DNA of 45,097 nucleotides from NCBI GenBank assembly GCA_016235545.1, contig JACRKB010000256.1, positions 1 to 45,097 of the forward strand, in the 5' to 3' direction. Shown here one piece after another: positions 22,616 through 33,130 of the stretch. Within the stretch, counting starts at the first letter, position 1. Each line of letters begins with the position of its first letter. Below the pieces are notes generated by a model. That model searched no databases. It worked only from the letters and a program-made list of their open reading frames with translations, and was not told the origin of the DNA. This DNA is from Verrucomicrobiota bacterium (GTDB lineage Bacteria > Verrucomicrobiota > Verrucomicrobiia > Limisphaerales > SXTU01). Position numbers and translations under genes: made by a program.

Positions 22616-25072
22616 TCAGTGGCTGAACAGGAATTCCTTGCTGCTCAGGAGACCCCAGTAAAGGTCCTCGATGGCAGCGCGGCGGTCGGACTCACCTGCG
22701 TCGGCGAGGAGTTTTAGGGAACGCGTCTTCTCCGTCGCGGTGGGCGGGCGGGAGAGCGTGCTGAGAAAGGCCTCGTCGAGAATCTCCTCGTTCGACTTCT
22801 TCGTGGCGAGGAGCGCCGCGATGCGGTTGTCCTTCGTGCCGAGCTTCGCATTGATGGTGTCGCCGTTCGCGATGTGCAGCGCTTGCGCCAAGCTCGGCTC
22901 CTCGGTGCGCTCGCATTCGCAGGTCTGAAGCCGGTCGGCGCGACCGAAAGTTTTCAGGAAGTAGCTCGCGATGTTTGAGTCGGGGAGCTGGAAGGCGCGG
23001 AGGGAAACGGGGTAGCGGTCGCCGATGCCGCGGTTGGCGTTGCGCAGGTCGCGGCGGAACTCGGTGGGGACGCCGGTGACTTGCGAGAAGGCGTCCAGCA
23101 TTGCCTCGGCCATCAGCCGGCGCGTGTAGTAACGCGAGTAGTAGCGGGAGTCAGTCGCGTTGCCGGGGAGCGACTCGCTGCCGCGCTGGTAAGCCTCGGA
23201 CTGGAGGATGGCTCGCATGAGCGACTTCAAATCGTAGCGCTGGTCGGCGAGAAACTTCGCGAGCGCGGAGAGGAGTTTCTCGTTGCTGGACGGGTTGGTG
23301 ACGCGCAAGTCGTCCACGGCTTCCACGAGGCCGACGCCCATGAAGTTCGCCCAGACGCGGTTCGCGATGGAGCGGGTGAAGTAGGGATTTTCCCGCGCGG
23401 TCAGCCACGCCGCGAGCGCGTCGCGTCGGTCGCCGGGCGCGTCAATCGCGATGGCCTTGCCGTCGAGCGGGCGTGGCGGGAGCGGCTTGCCGGAGAGCAG
23501 CGCGGGCACGTCGCCGGCGGTGGCGGCGAAGATGATTTTATCGCCGTCGCCACCGGGGCCGTTCTTGGTGCGGACACGCGCGAAGAGGTTCGCGAACTCG
23601 TAATACTGGTCGTTGGTCCACTTCTCGAGCGGGTGGTTGTGGCACTTGGCGCAGTTGATGGCCAAGCCCATGAACGCGACAGTCGTCGTCTCGGCCATGA
23701 GCGTCGGGTCGTCGTGCAGGACGAAGTAGTTCGCCGCGCCGTTGTCGAGCGTGCTGCCCTTGGCAGTGACGAGCTGGCGCACGAACTCGTCCCACGGCGT
23801 GTTCGCCTCCACCTGGCCGCGAATCCACTGGTAGTAGCTCCACATCGCGGGCTGCGGGAGCTTCGCGCCGTTGACCAGCAGCAGGTCGCTCCACTTGTAG
23901 CTCCAGTAGTCCACGAACTCAGGCCGCGCGAGCAGGCGCTCGATGAGCGCGTCACGCTTCTTCACCGAAGTGTCGGCCAGAAACTCACGCACTTCCGCAG
24001 CCGTGGGCAGTGTGCCGAGCGTGTCGAGGAACGCGCGGCGGATGAACTCCGAGTCCGAACAGCGCGGCGACGGCGGGACGTTGAGCGCCTTCAACTTCTC
24101 GTTCACGAGCTCGTCAATGAAGTTGCGCTTCGGAGCCTTGGTGAAGGTCGCGGAAGCCAGCTTGTTGTCGAAGGGCACCGTGACCGTCGCGAGCGCGAGG
24201 CGGCTGAGGAACCACGCGGAGATCGCGCCTTCGCCCCGGCCCATCACCGTGACGAGGCCGTCGTCGCTGACCACGCAGACGGCGTTGTTCGCGCTGGTGA
24301 ACTTCGCGTAGCGCGTCACGTCGCGGGACTCGCCGTTGGAGAACGTGGCGCGCACGAGGAGCTGCTGCGGGACGCCGGGCTTGAGCGTCACTTGCTCGGG
24401 CAGCACTTCAATCTTCGTGATGCGCGCGTCGCCGGGCTGCGGGGCGGGCGTGCCGTTCGCAATCCACTCGGACAGGATGCGGTAGTCGAGCGAGTCCGTG
24501 TTGAAGCGCTCGCCGCCCTTGTGCGGGACAGCGGTGGTGGGCTTGATGAGCAGGAGGCTGTGCGCCGGTTCCGCGACCGTGACGCGCCGGCCCAGCGCCG
24601 AGCGCGTGATGGCGCGGTGGTCGCCGTCCACATCGTAGCCGCGCAGCGAGAGCTTGAAGCCGCCCTGGCCCGCCGCCGCGCCGTGGCACGCGCCGGAGTT
24701 GCAGCCGGTCTTGGTGAGCACCGGTTGGAGGTGATTGCGAAAACTCCACTCGAACGGTTTCTCCATGTTCACCACGCGCACCTCGGCCTTCGCGGAACTG
24801 CGCCCGGATTTGCCCGTGACCGTGGCGGTGCCGTTGCCCACAGCGACAGCGAGGCCGTCCTCGATGCGGACGACCTTGGGATTGCTGGAGGTGAAGGTGA
24901 CGCTGTTCGTGACCTGGCCGAGCAAGGTCTTGCCATCGGCGAGTTCCAACACGAGACGCTGCTCGGCGGCGGGGCCGTCGAGGGTGAACTTGGCGGGGAG
25001 CAGGGTGAGGGACTCGGCCGAGAGCAGGAGCGGCATTAACGAGCAAAGCACCGAGAGAAGGCGCGACTTCAT
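22616..25072 (-). CDS. Big-2 / PSCyt / DUF1549-DUF1553 protein
   Basis: A complete 818-residue exported protein, signal peptide KSRLLSVLCSLMPLLLSAES. An N-terminal bacterial Ig-like domain (TFTSSNPKVVRIEDGLAVAV, GNGTATVTGKSG) is followed by TKTGCNSGACHGAAAGQGGF, a CX4CH site typical of this subfamily. A second Ig-like domain (LPEQVTLKPGVPQQLLVRAT to VSDDGLVTVMGRGEG) precedes DUF1549 (SEFIRRAFLDTLGTLPTAAE, and the CXXCH haem site INCAKCHNHPLEKWTNDQYY). DUF1553 follows (FTRSIANRVWANFMGVGLVE, NPSSNEKLLSALAKFLADQR, RRLMAEAMLDAFSQVTGVP, CECERTEEPSLAQALHIANG). It lies 19 bases after the DUF1501 gene and is almost certainly cotranscribed. Function is not established; the pair is expected at the outer face of the cell. 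Confidence 0.92.
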   Translation of the reverse strand: MKSRLLSVLCSLMPLLLSAESLTLLPAKFTLDGPAAEQRLVLELADGKTLLGQVTNSVTFTSSNPKVVRIEDGLAVAVGNGTATVTGKSGRSSAKAEVRVVNMEKPFEWSFRNHLQPVLTKTGCNSGACHGAAAGQGGFKLSLRGYDVDGDHRAITRSALGRRVTVAEPAHSLLLIKPTTAVPHKGGERFNTDSLDYRILSEWIANGTPAPQPGDARITKIEVLPEQVTLKPGVPQQLLVRATFSNGESRDVTRYAKFTSANNAVCVVSDDGLVTVMGRGEGAISAWFLSRLALATVTVPFDNKLASATFTKAPKRNFIDELVNEKLKALNVPPSPRCSDSEFIRRAFLDTLGTLPTAAEVREFLADTSVKKRDALIERLLARPEFVDYWSYKWSDLLLVNGAKLPQPAMWSYYQWIRGQVEANTPWDEFVRQLVTAKGSTLDNGAANYFVLHDDPTLMAETTTVAFMGLAINCAKCHNHPLEKWTNDQYYEFANLFARVRTKNGPGGDGDKIIFAATAGDVPALLSGKPLPPRPLDGKAIAIDAPGDRRDALAAWLTARENPYFTRSIANRVWANFMGVGLVEAVDDLRVTNPSSNEKLLSALAKFLADQRYDLKSLMRAILQSEAYQRGSESLPGNATDSRYYSRYYTRRLMAEAMLDAFSQVTGVPTEFRRDLRNANRGIGDRYPVSLRAFQLPDSNIASYFLKTFGRADRLQTCECERTEEPSLAQALHIANGDTINAKLGTKDNRIAALLATKKSNEEILDEAFLSTLSRPPTATEKTRSLKLLADAGESDRRAAIEDLYWGLLSSKEFLFSH

Positions 25073-25091
25073 AACGTGAAAGCGAAACGAG

Positions 25092-26465
25092 CTAGAACAA
25101 CTCCTTCACCTCGCGCACCCCGAAATCTACCAGCGCGAAGGGCCGGCCTTGCGGTCCCGGCAGGTGCGTGTCGAGGTCGAGGCCGAGGCTCTTGTAGATG
25201 GTGGCGACGACTTCGCCGGGGTTCACCGGGCGCTCGGCGGGATACGCGCCGATGTCGTCGCTGCGACCCACGACGCGGCCACCCTTTACGCCGCCGCCGG
25301 CGAAATAGACCGTCCAGCAGTTCGGCCAGTGGTCGCGGCCACCAGCGGGGTTGATGCGCGGGGTGCGGCCGAATTCGGCGAGGTTGCAGACCATCGTGTT
25401 GCCCAGCAGCCCGCGCTGGTCGAGGTCTTCGATGAGCGCGCTGTAGCCTTGGTCATACATCGGCGCGACGACGTCTCTCATGCCGGCGATGCTGGTGAAG
25501 GGCTTCGAGCCGTGGATGTCCCAGGTGATTTCGCCGAAGACGGTGAGGAAGGTGTTGACCGTCACGAAGCGCACGCCGCGCTCGACGAGCCGTCGCGCCA
25601 GCAGGCAGCACTGGCCGAAGCGCGTCATGCCGTAGCGTTCGCGGACTTTCAGCGGCTCCTTGGTCAGGTCGAAGGCGTCGCGCGCCTGTTCGCTGGTCAT
25701 CAGGCGGTAGGCGGCGGCGAAGTTCGCGTCCATCAGCTTCGCGGCCTCGCTCGCCTCGAACTTCTTCACCGTGTCGTCCACGACCTGCCGCAACTCACGG
25801 CGACGAGCGAGCCTCGCCTCGCCGATTTCCTTGGGCGGCAGGAGGTCGGGCACCTTGAACTCCTTCTGCGACGGGTCAGCGTTCAGCACGAACGGGTCGT
25901 ATGTTTTGCCGAGGAAGCCCGCATCCTGACCGTGCGGCATGTTCCCACCGGTCGGGCCCATCGGCTCGGGGAGGATGACGTGCGCGGGCAGGTCGCTGCG
26001 CCGGCCTTTGAGAAACTCCAGCGCGCAGCCCGCGTGCGGCGAGATGATGCCGCCTGTGAAGAGCCGGCCCGTCTGCATCATCTGGTGGCCGGAGTCGTGG
26101 ACCGCCGCCGCCGTATGGTAGCAAGAGCGCACGAGCGAGAACTTGTCGGCGATCTTCGCGTGGCCGGGGAGAATCTCGGAAAGTTGAAAATCGCCCTTGG
26201 TGGAAATCGCCTTGAACGGCCCGCGAATCTCGCTGGGCGCGTCGGGCTTCATGTCGAAGAGGTCGAGCTGGCTGGGCGCGCCGAGGTTGAAAATCATGAT
26301 GACCGACTTCTCGTTGCTGCCGCCCGCGACCTTGCCGGCGGCCTGAGCGGCGGAGTAATCCGCCATCGTGAGGCCGAGCGCGCCGAGCGTGCCGACCTGG
26401 AGGAAGTCACGGCGCGTGATGCCGTCGCAAGTGGTGATGGAGCCGGGTCCGGTGACATTGAGCAT
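25092..26465 (-). CDS. DUF1501 protein with Tat signal
   Basis: A 457-residue protein of the DUF1501 family (PF07394), distantly alkaline-phosphatase/sulfatase-like in fold. The twin-arginine signal is ITRRDFLQVGTLGALGLTMA near the N-terminus. Family blocks are SVIMIFNLGAPSQLDLFDMK, HAKIADKFSLVRSCYHTAAA, GHQMMQTGRLFTGG, HVILPEPMGPTGGNMPHGQD, ARRLVERGVRFVTVNTFLT, TMVCNLAEFGRTPRINPAGG followed by RDHWPNCWTVYFAGGGVKGG, and a C-terminal LGLDLDTHLPGPQGRP. The ATG at 26465 gives a normal-length family member. The DUF1549/1553 gene follows after 19 bases. The enzymatic activity of the family is unknown. The HlyD-type gene ends... upstream on the same strand, with 112 bases between them. Confidence 0.93.
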   Translation of the reverse strand: MLNVTGPGSITTCDGITRRDFLQVGTLGALGLTMADYSAAQAAGKVAGGSNEKSVIMIFNLGAPSQLDLFDMKPDAPSEIRGPFKAISTKGDFQLSEILPGHAKIADKFSLVRSCYHTAAAVHDSGHQMMQTGRLFTGGIISPHAGCALEFLKGRRSDLPAHVILPEPMGPTGGNMPHGQDAGFLGKTYDPFVLNADPSQKEFKVPDLLPPKEIGEARLARRRELRQVVDDTVKKFEASEAAKLMDANFAAAYRLMTSEQARDAFDLTKEPLKVRERYGMTRFGQCCLLARRLVERGVRFVTVNTFLTVFGEITWDIHGSKPFTSIAGMRDVVAPMYDQGYSALIEDLDQRGLLGNTMVCNLAEFGRTPRINPAGGRDHWPNCWTVYFAGGGVKGGRVVGRSDDIGAYPAERPVNPGEVVATIYKSLGLDLDTHLPGPQGRPFALVDFGVREVKELF

Positions 26466-28090: not shown

Positions 28091-29023
28091 ATGAATGCCC
28101 ATGCCAGCCTCCCTCGTCGCGCCTTCCTCACCAGCAGCGCACGCGCCACCGCCGCCCTGTCCCTGGGCGCCGCGTCGGCGTTTGCGGTGGAGGAGAAACC
28201 GCCGCGCTCCTTCACGGTCGAGGCCACGCAGGTCCGAGGCATCGCTGTCAGCACGCGCGGTGAACTGGCCGTGGCAGCCGACCATGCCATCCAGTTCTAC
28301 GGCCTCGACGGACGGAGGCTGCGCACGGTGTCGGCCGCCCAGCCGGTGAGGTGCGTGGCCTTTGATGCGCAAGGACGCTTGTTCGCCGGCCTCAAGAACC
28401 AGGCGGCGCGACTGGGAGCGACGGGAGTTTTGGAACCGCTCGGTGAGCCGCTGGGCGGACGCGACTCCGCGCTGACCTGCCTCGCGCTTGCGGACGACGG
28501 GCAAATCTTCGCCGCCGACAGCGGTGAGCGGCTCATCTGGCGGCTGGCGGCGGACGGCCATGTGCTCGGGCAAATCAAGCCGGCCGCGCACGGCTTCACC
28601 GTGCCGCGCGCGTTCTTCCCCATCGCCTGGCGCAACGGCCAGCTCATCGTGGCTGACCCGGGCCGTCACCAAATCCAAACCTACGCGCCGGACGGCCGGC
28701 TGCTGGCCAAGTGGGGAGAGCGCTCGCGAGACGCCAGCGGCTTCGCCGGCTGCTGCAATCCCGTGAGCTTCGCGGCGCTGCCGGACGGGACGTTGGTGAC
28801 TGCGGAGCGCGGACAGCCGCGCGTGAAGTTGTTCAACGCAGACGGCACGTTGCGTCGCGAGCTGGCGGGGCCGGAGCAGTTCGCGGCCAGCTTGCAAGCC
28901 GCGCGCGCCGAGGCGGACGAACTGCTCGGCTGCCAGGCGGGCTTGCTCGACCTCGCGGTGTCGCCGCGCGGAGCCGTCGTGGTGCTGGACCGAACCACAC
29001 GCGAGGTCCGCGTGCTGGCGTGA
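28091..29023 (+). CDS. Tat-exported NHL-type propeller protein with CCNP motif
   Basis: A 310-residue protein with a twin-arginine-like signal (LPRRAFLTSSARATAALSLG). The mature part is a beta-propeller of NHL-type repeats: IAVSTRGELAVAADHAIQFY, VAFDAQGRLFAGL, LALADDGQIFAADSGERLIW, RNGQLIVADPGRHQIQTY and ALPDGTLVTAERGQPRVKLF. The block WGERSRDASGFAGCCNPVSF holds vicinal cysteines at 221-222, and a further GC lies in ELLGCQAGLLDLA. The same block is conserved in the next gene. I do not know the family's function; the conserved Cys-Cys suggests metal or metalloid binding, or a disulfide. It is the first gene of a four-gene operon; the next starts 32 bases on. Confidence 0.8.
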   Translation: MNAHASLPRRAFLTSSARATAALSLGAASAFAVEEKPPRSFTVEATQVRGIAVSTRGELAVAADHAIQFYGLDGRRLRTVSAAQPVRCVAFDAQGRLFAGLKNQAARLGATGVLEPLGEPLGGRDSALTCLALADDGQIFAADSGERLIWRLAADGHVLGQIKPAAHGFTVPRAFFPIAWRNGQLIVADPGRHQIQTYAPDGRLLAKWGERSRDASGFAGCCNPVSFAALPDGTLVTAERGQPRVKLFNADGTLRRELAGPEQFAASLQAARAEADELLGCQAGLLDLAVSPRGAVVVLDRTTREVRVLA

Positions 29024-29055
29024 CGGAGCGTGGGAAATTCCCAACTTCTCCAATC

Positions 29056-30144
29056 ATGAAGTCCACCCTTCTCCACTGGGCAGTCACGACTGCGATTTGC
29101 CTGGGCGCTCCAGCGCTGACGCCCGCCGCCTCGCTCGACACTCCGACGCACAAGGAAGTCGAACCCATCCGAATTCCCATCGGGCCGGAAGGATTGGTCA
29201 AGACCATAGCGATGGACGTGAAAGGCAACCTGCTCGTGGGCGTCTCGTGGGCGGCGGACGAAGCAAAGCCTGCTCCCGCCGCAGTGCCACCGCCCGGCGG
29301 ACCCGGTCGCCGGGGGGACGTGCGTCAGAACGACCCCAACGCACGCGGCGGCATCAACCCCGCGCTGGCGATTGACCGCGAGGGCCACACCTACGCGCTC
29401 AAGGTCGTCAGCCCCGACGGCAAGGTGCTCGCCACCTGGCCGATGACCGGCGGCTTGCAGCCGAAGATGATTTTCGGCAGCGAGGAAGGCGCGGTGTATG
29501 TCGCCGGCGGCGGTCGTCTCGCGCAGTTCACCGCCGATGGAAAACTGGTGCAGATGCTCGACACCGACCAGCTCTACGGCCAGAAGGGGCAGGCCGCCGG
29601 CTTGTGCGCCGATGCCTCGCACGTCTATCTCGCGCTGGGCATGGGCAACAGCCTGCGTGCGACCGAGGACTTCATCCGGTTCAAGCGCGACCTCTCCGAG
29701 CCAAAGACAATCGTCGAGCGCCAATACGGCTGCTGCAACCACATTGACCTGCGCGTCGCGAAGGGCGAACTGCTCATCGCCGAGAACTCGCGCCACCGCG
29801 TGAACCGCTTCGACCTCGATGGCAAGCCGCTCGGAACCTGGGGCCGGCGCGACCGCGAGAGCCTGTCCGGCTTCGTCGCCTGCTGCAATCCGTGCAACTT
29901 CGACTTCGGCCCCGGCGGCGTGCTTTACACCGCCGAGTCGGGTGTGGGCCGCGTGAAAAAATACGCGCAGGATGGCACGTTTCTCGGCCTCGTCGGCTAC
30001 GTGGACACGACCAAGTTCGACCAGGGCAGCCAGCTCGCCGCGCAGTCCTGCTACATCCCCATCGAGGTCAACCACGACGCCAGCCGCATCTACGTCATGG
30101 ACGTTCGCGCGGCCATCATCCGCGTGCTGGCCAAGCTGAACTGA
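29056..30144 (+). CDS. Exported NHL-type propeller protein with two Cys-Cys-Asn motifs
   Basis: A 362-residue protein with an ordinary Sec signal peptide (KSTLLHWAVTTAICLGAPAL). It is a paralogue of the preceding gene: propeller blades such as ALAIDREGHTYALKVVSPDG, VYVAGGGRLAQFTADGKLVQ, VAKGELLIAENSRHRVNRFD and FGPGGVLYTAESGVGRVKKY. There are two vicinal-cysteine blocks, RQYGCCNHIDL (226-227) and SGFVACCNPCNFDF (276-277), the second aligning with the CCNP block of the first propeller and carrying an additional Cys. A Pro/Gly-rich loop (PAPAAVPPPGGPGRRGD, about 72-88) interrupts the first part. The function is unknown. The next gene follows after only 6 bases, which supports translational linkage. 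Confidence 0.8.
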   Translation: MKSTLLHWAVTTAICLGAPALTPAASLDTPTHKEVEPIRIPIGPEGLVKTIAMDVKGNLLVGVSWAADEAKPAPAAVPPPGGPGRRGDVRQNDPNARGGINPALAIDREGHTYALKVVSPDGKVLATWPMTGGLQPKMIFGSEEGAVYVAGGGRLAQFTADGKLVQMLDTDQLYGQKGQAAGLCADASHVYLALGMGNSLRATEDFIRFKRDLSEPKTIVERQYGCCNHIDLRVAKGELLIAENSRHRVNRFDLDGKPLGTWGRRDRESLSGFVACCNPCNFDFGPGGVLYTAESGVGRVKKYAQDGTFLGLVGYVDTTKFDQGSQLAAQSCYIPIEVNHDASRIYVMDVRAAIIRVLAKLN

Positions 30145-30150
30145 GCTGCC

Positions 30151-32154
30151 GTGACTCCAGAGCTTCTCTCCCGCCGGGCTTGGGGAACACGGCTGCTCGC
30201 GGGAGCCGTGCTGCCACTGGCGCGGCCGGCCTTCGCCGCGACGAAGGAGCCGCTGCGCCTCATCGTGATGGACCCGCTGGCGCTGCAACTCTCCTGCACC
30301 TGCGTGCCCGGCACGGGCCAGCGCCGCTACGACTTGCTCGCGAAACATCTGGAGTCGTTCGTGGGCCGCCCGGTGAGCGTGACCTTCGAGGAGAGTCTCG
30401 CGCTCGCCCTCGGGCGCACGGGCGGCACGGCGCACCTCATCATCGGCAAGGACTCCGTCGTGCGCTTCGATGCCGGGCGACACAAGCAGGCGGTTCGCCC
30501 GCTCGCCGCGTTGACCGACCGCGCTGGCACGACGGATTTTCACGGAGTCTTCCTGGTCCGCAAAAGCAGTCCCGAAAAATCGCTCGCCGACCTCGCCGGC
30601 AAAGTGGTCAGCCTCGGCCCGGTGGAGGACGAGGAATCCCACGCCGCCGCGCGCCGCGCGCTCTCGGCTGCGAAGGTTGAGGCGAAGCTCAAAATCGCCG
30701 GCAGCCTGGACGCGGCCGCGCTCGCGCTTCACGACGGCGAGGTGGATGCGGCGGTGGTCTCGGACTTTCTGCCGCCGCTGCTCGAAGGCTGCGGCAAGCT
30801 CGACCGGGGTTCCGTGCGCGTGCTCGGCTTGACCGAGCCGGTGCCGTTCATCCGTGCCTTCGCCACCAGCGCGGTGGACGCGGCGTTGGAAGAGAAGATT
30901 GCGCGCGGGCTGGCGGCGGTTTCGACCTCGCCCAAACTCCTCGCGGCGCTGGAGAGCAAGGCTGGCTTCGTGAGCCTGCGGGAGCAGGGCATCACCGCGT
31001 GGACCGACTGGCGCGGGCCGGGCCGCAAAGGATTTGTCCCCCAACTTCCCCGCCAGCTCCCGGCCAATCCGAAACGCCTCTGGTCGGCGGCATTGACCGG
31101 CCCCGCGATGGCCGGCCCGGCGGCGACCTCGCAGTTCGTCATCGTGCCGGACAAGACCGCCGACGCCACGCGCGACCTCTTCCGCTGCCTCAGCGCGGCG
31201 GACGGCAAGGAACTTTGGCGGCTCGAATACGCCGCGCCCGACGAGCTGGATTACTCGAACGCCCCGCGCGCGACGCCGGTGATTCACGACGGGCTGGTCT
31301 ATCTGCAAGGCGCGCTCGGCCACCTGCATTGCGTCGCGCTTGCGACCGGCAAGGTGGTCTGGAAGGCGCACCTCTTCGATGACTTCCGCGTGCCGCGCCT
31401 GACGTGGGGCGCGGCGGTTCCGCCGCTGGTGCTCGACGACAAGCTCATCATCGCGCCCGGCGCGAAGGCCGCCTCCGTCGTCGCGCTCGACCGCAAGACG
31501 GGCAAGCCGCTGTGGCAGACGCCCGGCCACGCGGCGGCGTATTCCGCGTTTGTCCACGGCACGTTCGATGGCGTGCGGCAAGTCATCGGCTACGACGTGG
31601 CAAGCCTCGGCGGCTGGGACCCGCAGACGGGCCGGCGGCTCTGGGAACTCGTGCCGCCCGATGGCGCGGACTTCAATGTCACCACGCCCGTGGTGCTGGG
31701 CAGCCAGTTGCTGCTCGCCGCCGAGAACAACGCCACGCGCCTCCATCGCTTCGATGGCGGCGGCAAACTTGTCCCCGCGCCGGTGCAGAGGAACAAGGAC
31801 GCGGCCCCGGACACCTGCACGCCGGTCGTGGTGAACGGCAAGGTGTTCGCCACGGCCTATGGCGAGTTGTTCTGCCTCGACTTGAACGCCGGGCTGAAAA
31901 CGCTCTGGCGCGTGGCGAACGACATGTTTCACGACCACGTCACCCTCGTCGCAGGTCCCGGCCGCGTGCTGGTCTGGACGATTGGTGGCGACCTGCTGCT
32001 GCTCGACACCACCGTGGACCGCTACCAGGTCGTCTCGCATCTGCGGCCCTTCCCCGGCAAGACCGTGGACTCGATGGCGCACCCTGCGTTCGCTGGCGAC
32101 CGCATCTACCTGCGCTCGCCGAAGGAGCTTCTTTGCCTGCGGCTCGTGGAATAA
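30151..32154 (+). CDS. PhnD-like substrate-binding domain fused to PQQ-type propeller
   Basis: A 667-residue exported protein starting at GTG 30151, six bases after the previous stop. The N-terminus is a Tat-like signal (LSRRAWGTRLLAGAVLPLAR). Residues about 33-285 resemble the periplasmic oxyanion-binding (PhnD/SsuA-type) fold: LRLIVMDPLALQLSCTCVPG followed by TGQRRYDLLAKHLESFVGRP, GTTDFHGVFLVRKSSPEKSL, then LAGKVVSLGPVEDEESHAAA. A CXC pair (Cys49, Cys51) sits where the domain begins. Residues about 300-667 are a PQQ-type propeller (SAADGKELWRLEYAAPDELD, LDRKTGKPLWQTPGHAAAYS, LATGKVVWKAHLF). The PQQ-binding Cys-Cys of quinoprotein dehydrogenases is not evident. The fusion is unusual, and the ligand is unknown. 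ArsS follows 28 bases downstream. Confidence 0.75.
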   Translation: MTPELLSRRAWGTRLLAGAVLPLARPAFAATKEPLRLIVMDPLALQLSCTCVPGTGQRRYDLLAKHLESFVGRPVSVTFEESLALALGRTGGTAHLIIGKDSVVRFDAGRHKQAVRPLAALTDRAGTTDFHGVFLVRKSSPEKSLADLAGKVVSLGPVEDEESHAAARRALSAAKVEAKLKIAGSLDAAALALHDGEVDAAVVSDFLPPLLEGCGKLDRGSVRVLGLTEPVPFIRAFATSAVDAALEEKIARGLAAVSTSPKLLAALESKAGFVSLREQGITAWTDWRGPGRKGFVPQLPRQLPANPKRLWSAALTGPAMAGPAATSQFVIVPDKTADATRDLFRCLSAADGKELWRLEYAAPDELDYSNAPRATPVIHDGLVYLQGALGHLHCVALATGKVVWKAHLFDDFRVPRLTWGAAVPPLVLDDKLIIAPGAKAASVVALDRKTGKPLWQTPGHAAAYSAFVHGTFDGVRQVIGYDVASLGGWDPQTGRRLWELVPPDGADFNVTTPVVLGSQLLLAAENNATRLHRFDGGGKLVPAPVQRNKDAAPDTCTPVVVNGKVFATAYGELFCLDLNAGLKTLWRVANDMFHDHVTLVAGPGRVLVWTIGGDLLLLDTTVDRYQVVSHLRPFPGKTVDSMAHPAFAGDRIYLRSPKELLCLRLVE

Positions 32155-32182
32155 CCAGCCCCACGGCGCTTCCCATCGAGCA

Positions 32183-33130
32183 ATGACGAACATGTTCGAG
32201 CACCGACTGCAAGCCCACGGCCTCACGCTGCGGCGCGGCCTGCTGCACACGCTGCAAATCAACGTCGGGCGCAAATGCAACCAGACCTGCCGCCACTGCC
32301 ATGTGGACGCCGCGCCGTGGCGCACGGAGATGATGAGCGCCGAGGTGGCGGAACGCGTCGGTGACTGGATTCACGCGCATCGGCCGGCGGTGGTGGACAT
32401 CACCGGCGGCGCGCCGGAGTTGAGCGAGCACTTCCGCCCCTTCGTCGAGCTGGCCCGGTCGTGCGGCTGCCACGTCATTGACCGCAACAACCTCACCATC
32501 ATCGAGACGGAGGCGTTCGGCTGGCTGCCGGAGTTCCTCGCGGCGCACGAAGTGGAGGTCATCGCGTCGTTGCCGTGCTACCTCGAAGAAAACGTGGATG
32601 CTCAGCGCGGCGACGGCGTGTTCGCGAAGAGCATTCGCGCACTCAAGAAGCTCAACGCCGTCGGCTACGGGACGCGGCTGCCGCTGAACCTGGTGTTCAA
32701 TCCGCAGGGGCTGAAGCTCCCGCCACCGCAGCGCGAGTTGGAGGCCGATTACAAGGCCGAGCTGCGCGCGCGCTTCGGCATCGAGTTCACGCGCCTCTTC
32801 ACCATCACGAACCAGCCCATCGCCCGCTTCGCGGAGGACCTGCGCGCCGCGGGCCAATGGGACGCGTATCTGGAACTGCTCGCCAACGCCTTCAACCCGG
32901 CAACGGTCGCGGGCCTGATGTGCCGCAGCACAATCAGCATCGGCTGGCGGGGCGAAGTGTTCGACTGCGACTTCAACCAGATGCTCGGAATGCAGATGCG
33001 CAACGGCAAGCCGCTTCACCTCTGGGACGTGACGCCCGAAAAGCTCGCCAGCTGGGACATACAGACGGGGCTTCACTGCCTCGCCTGCACCGCCGGCTGC
33101 GGCAGCAGTTGCACCGGGGCGGTGGCCTGA
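32183..33130 (+). CDS. arsS: Radical SAM protein of the arsenosugar-biosynthesis ArsS family
   Basis: A 315-residue radical SAM enzyme. The AdoMet cluster motif CNQTCRHCH (Cys32, 36, 39) follows LLHTLQINVGRKC, and family blocks are VVDITGGAPELSEHFRPFVE, DRNNLTIIETEAFGWLPEFL, VEVIASLPCYLEENVDAQRG, YGTRLPLNLVFNPQGLKLPP, LFTITNQPIARFAEDL, and GLMCRSTISIGWRGEVFDCD followed by FNQMLGM. The C-terminus ends in a Cys-rich tail, LHCLACTAGCGSSCTGAVA, which matches the radical SAM/Cys-rich family now called ArsS. Characterised members join the 5'-deoxyadenosyl group of AdoMet to dimethylated arsenic. No ArsM methyltransferase is seen in the window. ATG 32183 is chosen because family similarity starts there. 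It is the last gene of the propeller operon. Confidence 0.86.
   Translation: MTNMFEHRLQAHGLTLRRGLLHTLQINVGRKCNQTCRHCHVDAAPWRTEMMSAEVAERVGDWIHAHRPAVVDITGGAPELSEHFRPFVELARSCGCHVIDRNNLTIIETEAFGWLPEFLAAHEVEVIASLPCYLEENVDAQRGDGVFAKSIRALKKLNAVGYGTRLPLNLVFNPQGLKLPPPQRELEADYKAELRARFGIEFTRLFTITNQPIARFAEDLRAAGQWDAYLELLANAFNPATVAGLMCRSTISIGWRGEVFDCDFNQMLGMQMRNGKPLHLWDVTPEKLASWDIQTGLHCLACTAGCGSSCTGAVA

Follow-up and report, generated by a model that had tools for sequence, protein, structure and literature searches.

A conserved exported cassette pairing a five-cysteine propeller with a CXC-type PhnD-like domain, found beside arsS in a Verrucomicrobiota genome

Does a closely spaced set of genes that ends in arsS encode a single arsenic system, or has arsS come to lie beside a cassette of another kind? 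This question is raised by the window analyzed here, a stretch of 45,097 nucleotides (contig JACRKB010000256.1 of the Verrucomicrobiota bacterium assembly GCA_016235545.1), in which four plus-strand genes at positions 28091-33130, with intergenic gaps of 32, 6, and 28 bases, encode two propellers, a protein that fuses a PhnD-like domain to a further propeller, and a radical SAM enzyme. A preliminary description of the locus had read the four genes as a periplasmic system, including ArsS, that captures or senses arsenic, selenium or another oxyanion. Comparison with homologous loci revealed that the exported cassette is real and conserved, with a propeller bearing Cys-Cys (CC) blocks and a PhnD-like domain bearing a Cys-X-Cys (CXC) pair as its recurrent parts, and that ArsS is most likely a passenger beside it. 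The features concerned are as follows.

28091..29023, plus strand: propeller 1 (310 residues, NHL type, twin-arginine N-terminus, CCNP at residues 221-224)
29056..30144, plus strand: propeller 2 (362 residues; conserved Cys226-227, Cys276-277, and Cys332)
30151..32154, plus strand: fusion of a CXC-type PhnD-like domain (approximately residues 34-276) with a BamB-like PQQ_2 propeller (approximately residues 300-667)
30295..30303, plus strand: CXC pair of the fusion, Cys49-Thr-Cys51
32183..33130, plus strand: arsS, intact, 315 residues, judged a passenger outside the cassette

Recurrence of the cassette in Verrucomicrobiota and Planctomycetota

The coordinates and gaps given in the preliminary description were confirmed, as were the CCNP block shared by both propellers (WGERSRDASGFAGCCNP; WGRRDRESLSGFVACCNP, combining WG.R.R with GF..CCNP), the additional CCN block of propeller 2 (YGCCNHID), the CXC pair of the fusion, and the assignment of the radical SAM enzyme to the ArsS family. 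Its view that the system is exported, keeps its vicinal thiols, and includes a PhnD-type domain is likewise supported. In the genome scans of both phyla, for the fusion, the PhnD-like domain and ArsS alike, a limited number of candidates was scored per genome, and misses are possible. At an E value of 1e-20 the fusion was matched in 57 of 288 Verrucomicrobiota genomes. Four matches only (G000, which is the genome of the window, G114, G209, and G139) covered both fusion domains, the others essentially the propeller part. When these four were aligned and the alignment was used to scan species genomes, 36 fusion loci were obtained in Verrucomicrobiota and their kin, Planctomycetota, one armatimonadete, and one organism listed as 'bacterium'. 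In five of these (L139, L145, L147, L151, and L153) the frame that was read shows no PhnD start, and the CXC pair was found in 30 of the 31 that remain; judging by equal length and protein, L135 and G114:C81 appear to be one contig, as do L143 and G209:C85. Alignments A2 and A3 were both made without L122, and A2 also without the unfused and cut-frame loci. In L137, the exception among the 31, the CXC pair is missing from the PhnD-PQQ fusion (103-2199).

A propeller with two CC blocks adjoins the fusion in 26 of the 30 CXC loci (all except L127, L128, L132, and L135), and the same 26 gave a tblastn match to propeller 2, while a relative of the single-CC propeller 1 is present in 5/30. Two loci are arranged differently: in L129 (1-2781) and L146 (862-3615), two CC-propeller domains with four CC blocks occupy a single frame of 926 and 917 codons, respectively, before the CXC-PhnD gene. 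A profile of the PhnD-like domain, run on 246 Planctomycetota genomes, matched 15, ten of them strongly (more than 300 bits; 11 loci). A CC propeller adjoins ten of these 11 loci (L125 included; the exception is L127), and in four of the 11 the PhnD-like domain is encoded separately, by a short frame of 292 to 406 codons. In three of these four split loci (all but L215) a PQQ-type propeller was identified as the product of the next gene. The recurrent unit is therefore the pair of CC propeller and CXC-PhnD domain, with the PQQ propeller fused to it or beside it. With strong matches in 4/288 Verrucomicrobiota and 10/246 Planctomycetota genomes, the pair is scattered and uncommon in both phyla. 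The remaining flanks of the fusion loci are variable; they were read by eye from neighbour lists of crude composition-score gene calls, which are approximate, missed propeller 1 in the window, and clipped starts. As far as our searches of open-licence full texts reach, the cassette is undescribed. It offers a defined and testable protein pair in two phyla about whose envelope chemistry little is known.

The PhnD-like domain and the cysteine propellers

The fusion matches PF12974 (Phosphonate-bd) with 80.5 bits (gathering score 27) and PF13360 (PQQ_2) with 114.8 bits (cut-off 27.6). In the structure model (mean predicted local distance difference test score, pLDDT, 87.9; predicted template modelling score, pTM, 0.62), the top Foldseek matches are to BamB; with regard to PQQ-dependent dehydrogenases, the only similarity seen for this propeller is of the PQQ_2/BamB-like kind. 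The nearest solved relatives of the PhnD-like domain are phosphite and phosphonate binders, the best being 5jvb (E 3.7e-14 for the profile, spanning residues 34-237 of the chain), a chain that we read as Te_PtxB from the fit of its numbering. According to PMC5700983, Te_PtxB binds phosphite through Y55, Y100, S130, T131, S132, and H160, with Y208 as a cap, and in a relative of Te_PtxB a loop aspartate, D16, latches over the pocket.

Residues D41, G99, E162, and C214 are identical in all 31 core PhnD-like domains (the window and 30 loci). The same count holds for C49, C51, R58, and Y60, whose invariance in the 30 loci is by construction because the motif used for their selection contains those residues. 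All eight residues, the CXC pair among them, are kept in each of nine further Planctomycetota cassettes, which were found by profile and without the motif. The phosphite pocket is altered in the alignment. At the position of Te_PtxB S132, Glu is present in 31/31 core, 9/9 further, and 6/6 distant domains, so that no Ser-Thr-Ser run is left and the STS-H pocket motif is absent from the core domains. The H160 position is Cys in 21/31 core, 9/9 further, and 6/6 distant domains, and the S130 position is Cys in nine of the 31 core and three of the nine further domains. An ordinary oxyanion binder is unlikely, since the CXC pair, one further Cys, and a Glu in place of the phosphite-binding serine are kept; the replacement favours a putative thiolate/carboxylate site over an oxyanion site of the ordinary kind. 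In the fusion model the CXC pair is placed after the first strand (35-40) and before the first helix (60-71), in a region which by inference would correspond to the latch-loop region of PtxB-type proteins.

The domain thus shares the PF12974 fold with the PtxB/PhnD-type binders (5jvb; PMC5700983), but it has lost the STS-H pocket and gained the CXC pair, Glu162, Cys214, and a PQQ_2 propeller that is often fused or following. The AioX/ArxX/ArrX sensors likewise have a PhnD-like periplasmic domain, to which ArrX is a weak profile match (E 0.5). In AioX, as described in PMC5908839, Cys106 is used in the pocket, the Ser161, Ser163, and His192 pocket is kept, and the sensor works with a histidine kinase and a response regulator. 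In the cassette domain, by contrast, the corresponding serines, compared through the PtxB positions, are replaced, and no constant kinase/regulator pair was seen at its loci. A common binding-protein fold has seemingly been converted from an oxyanion grip to a thiolate site, usually in the company of a five-cysteine propeller.

Both cysteine propellers resemble NHL-domain proteins. Propeller 1 scores 41.1 bits against NHL (cut-off 20) and propeller 2 scores 18.6 bits, just below the gathering score of 20; the AlphaFold2 model of propeller 2 (mean pLDDT 84.1, pTM 0.82) gave NHL-domain propellers, TRIM2 and others, as its top Foldseek matches with a probability of 1.00. An RR-x-F N-terminus is present on propeller 1 of the window and on 5/5 relatives, and these twin-arginine starts suggest that propeller 1 may be exported as a folded protein. 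In propeller 2 the fifth, later and single Cys is kept in 29/29 aligned propellers, which were gathered by their CC blocks, with the tblastn homology matches as a check. The last Cys of each of the three groups lies four residues before the start of a strand (231, 281, and 336) in three successive blades. In ordinary propeller topology these sites would be the loops entering the innermost strands, and the five cysteines would therefore ring one opening. A search for relatives of propeller 2 on plasmids found none.

Ferredoxin-associated relatives and possible functions

The PhnD-domain profile matched 12 of the 288 Verrucomicrobiota genomes: the four core genomes, five with distant matches of 101 to 139 bits, and three with generic matches of approximately 50 bits. 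In all five distant loci, the CXC-PhnD and CCNP propeller genes are followed by genes for a 4Fe-4S ferredoxin and a NapH/MauN-like polyferredoxin, with reading frames read at two of the loci; two of the polyferredoxins scored 68.5 and 58.1 bits against TIGR02163 (NapH/MauN), below its cut-off of 213. The propellers of this branch carry two CC blocks and a later Cys in 5/5. A planctomycete locus, L219, combines a distant CXC-PhnD protein with a single-CC propeller, and with it counted, C49, C51, R58, Y60, E162, and a Cys at the H160 position are kept in 6/6 distant PhnD proteins. The genes that accompany the distant pair are like the ferredoxin electron-input modules of the NapG/NapH, MauM/MauN, and NosR types, of which no genes were seen in the cassette of the window. 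At two distant loci (L235, 521-10536, and L236, 2840-14000), ArsR-type, DsrE-like, TusA, and HdrA/FAD-type genes occur near the CXC-PhnD, CCNP, ferredoxin, and polyferredoxin genes, the Pfam matches for these sulfur-type neighbours having been run on L235 only.

Propeller 1 leads to ferredoxin genes by a second route, being 34% identical over 261 residues to a CCNP propeller from a ferredoxin/NuoEF-type cluster. In clusters of this type a PQQ propeller accompanies the CCNP propeller; among 18 loci examined (one of them the source of the queries), ferredoxin genes are present in 16, polyferredoxin genes in 15, and NuoEF-like genes in eight. Within Verrucomicrobiota the arrangement of PQQ/CCNP propellers with ferredoxin and polyferredoxin recurs at L092 (7642-18475) and at L088, L090, L091, L093-L095, L107, L108, L110, L111, and L116.

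The function to which we incline, tentatively and at somewhat less than even confidence, is that the exported module would use thiolates to handle a soft metal or metalloid in the periplasm. In the ligand, transfer, and geometry that we infer, the PhnD-like domain, its oxyanion pocket lost, would use the CXC loop, the invariant Glu, and one more invariant Cys to bind a soft metal ion or metalloid, e.g. Cu(I) or As(III), the latter being a possible thiol ligand. In propeller 2 this ion, or else a small cluster, might be held at the channel mouth by the two vicinal Cys pairs and the single Cys, and the PQQ-type propeller could serve as a scaffold or partner. ArsS would be a separate enzyme of arsenic metabolism, working, if at all, with an ArsM-like protein encoded on another contig (C120, described below). 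Several observations weigh against such thiolate handling. At the S130 and H160 positions the window's own domain carries Asp and Leu instead of Cys. C214 aligns with Te_PtxB R188, outside the pocket residues, and may not be in the pocket; moreover, it is aligned in just one of the six distant PhnD proteins, though there is a Cys nearby. The CXC loop falls outside the aligned stretch of the PtxB match, no constant metal-resistance or metal-transport neighbour was seen by eye in the crude gene lists, and the ferredoxin company of the distant branch would suit a redox role equally well or better.

A close rival to soft-ion handling, and one that we regard as possible but doubtful, is a thiol/sulfur electron relay. 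Here the vicinal and CXC pairs would alternate between the dithiol and disulfide states or bear sulfane sulfur, with ferredoxin-type proteins supplying them in the wider family. Its main support is the propeller 1-type clusters together with the distant ferredoxin loci, i.e. the ferredoxin and NapH/MauN-like polyferredoxin behind the distant pair in 5/5 Verrucomicrobiota loci and the ferredoxin beside a propeller 1-family CCNP propeller in 16/18. The ArsR-type, DsrE-like, TusA, and HdrA/FAD-type company at L235 and L236 also favours it, hinting at sulfur chemistry, as does a TlpA/ResA-like gene (by eye) that abuts the cassette in one genome, G139. However, the G139 TlpA-like protein is without a match in the 36 fusion loci, and no constant ferredoxin, polyferredoxin, or thioredoxin partner was seen by eye in the crude lists of the core cassette loci. 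Furthermore, three neighbouring blades bearing CC, CC, and C would resemble a binding site no less than a redox pair.

Elements of soft-ion handling and of electron supply may be combined in one proposal, which is speculative and in our estimate has well under an even chance. Under it, an undescribed periplasmic module of a five-cysteine propeller and a rewired PhnD-like domain would bind one soft ion and hand it on, or else assemble an inorganic cluster, with the sister branch fed by ferredoxin and NapH-like proteins. If so, the electrons of the sister branch might, e.g., keep copper reduced or serve cofactor assembly.

The origin of arsS and less probable explanations

The fourth protein matches TIGR04167 (ArsS) with 424.8 bits (cut-off 300) and PF12345 (DUF3641) with 176.2 bits (24.9), and its radical-SAM CxxxCxxC motif reads CNQTCRHC. 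That it forms one periplasmic arsenic/selenium system with its exported neighbours now appears improbable. Such a system would fit the 28-base gap and common strand in the window, and As(III) favours three thiolates. It would also fit a genome-level enrichment, with kinship uncorrected: ArsS is present in 7/10 strong-match Planctomycetota genomes versus 75/236 others (one-sided p 0.018) and in 2/4 strong-match Verrucomicrobiota genomes versus 16/284 (p 0.021, the window's genome included; 1/3 without it). No ArsS was detected in the five distant CXC-PhnD genomes. In a separate set of 32 fusion genomes (33 loci, without L135, L143, and L153; G295 and G297 are also in the other set), nine had ArsS, namely 6/21 Planctomycetota (background 82/246), 2/10 Verrucomicrobiota (background 18/288), and one armatimonadete. 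This enrichment is weak and inseparable from kinship; it is suggestive and favours the ArsS link a little, and it was not used as support because kinship is uncorrected and the association is not clearly repeated in the 32-genome set.

Against this stands the absence of ArsS from the flanks of every other cassette examined. None of the 36 fusion loci, which span 4.4-18 kb each, gave a tblastn match to ArsS, nor did any of 12 later Planctomycetota regions, nine of which are the further cassettes. Conversely, of 17 other ArsS places in Verrucomicrobiota, 14 were taken with longer flanks; nine of the 14 included an ArsM-like match and none the cassette, and among 58 short ArsS loci of approximately 3.8 kb each (the window included; L162 and L163 are halves from one genome), an ArsM-like match was present in 30 and a cassette part only at the window's own. 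On the approximately whole-genome contigs of three genomes, cassette and ArsS are 0.87 (G499, at 4,927,519 and 4,054,939), 2.78 (G556, at 4,991,056 and 2,209,916), and 4.86 Mb (G470, at 443,451 and 5,301,850) apart. The outcome that the preliminary description had named as refuting it thus holds for the ArsS link, since homologues are mostly without ArsS, although their Cys pairs are conserved. ArsS as a member of the cassette was rejected on this lack of adjacency in homologues.

Furthermore, the window ArsS has a different and clear partner. The earlier statement that no arsenic methyltransferase accompanies the genes is correct within the window, where no ArsM-like gene was found among the four genes or in the gene list, but an ArsM-like gene is present on contig C120 of the same genome, beside a decayed arsS fragment. 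The C120 ArsM-like protein (best NCBIfam match 320.8 bits, cut-off 500, for a sequence whose start was clipped) is 79% identical to that of G099, in whose locus an ArsM-like gene and an ArsS 80% identical to the window ArsS occur together. The window enzyme, over the TIGR04167 cut-off, is like those of ArsM-ArsS loci, with the difference that its genome has the arsM-like gene elsewhere, on a different contig and next to a truncated arsS copy. That fragment (approximately 96 matching residues, one radical-SAM motif cysteine lost) has 94% DNA identity to the window arsS over 212 bases, and the window ArsS is for this reason most likely the displaced partner of the C120 arsM-like gene. Part of a TlpA-like gene upstream is also common to C120 and the window (86% over 111 columns). 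The simplest account would be that arsS was parted from arsM by duplication or recombination; misbinning of a contig is possible, as the assembly consists of 311 contigs. A close, operon-like neighbour can mislead, and in this case it is most likely a relocated copy. On C120 itself (L037, 636-2689, minus strand), sigma-factor, anti-sigma-like, and TlpA-like genes lie upstream of the ArsM-like methyltransferase and truncated arsS genes.

An envelope assembly scaffold, in which BamB-like propellers would carry structural cysteines, is also quite unlikely: the PQQ_2 part is BamB-like by sequence (60 bits, below the model cut-off of 285) and by fold, but this similarity leaves the CXC pair, Glu162, the CC sites, and the recurrent pairing unexplained. 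Least probable is a binding protein for uptake of phosphite, phosphonate, or arsenate, for which the PF12974 domain and its phosphite- and phosphonate-binding solved relatives would speak; like the oxyanion-type binder of the preliminary description, it finds no support in the replaced pocket residues, on which it was rejected, the domain moreover being fused to a propeller and no ABC transporter subunit being seen by eye as a constant neighbour.

In the window as a whole, Rfam at gathering score and a tRNA scan gave no matches. One further feature lies upstream of the cassette, the counterpart of the gene matched on C120:

27828..27937, plus strand: remnant of the 5' part of a TlpA/ResA-like gene (signal-peptide end only), by match to contig C120

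Further upstream, at 22616-26465 on the minus strand, Pfam matches identify a DUF1549/DUF1553 and DUF1501 pair of the kind that is frequent in Verrucomicrobiota and Planctomycetota.

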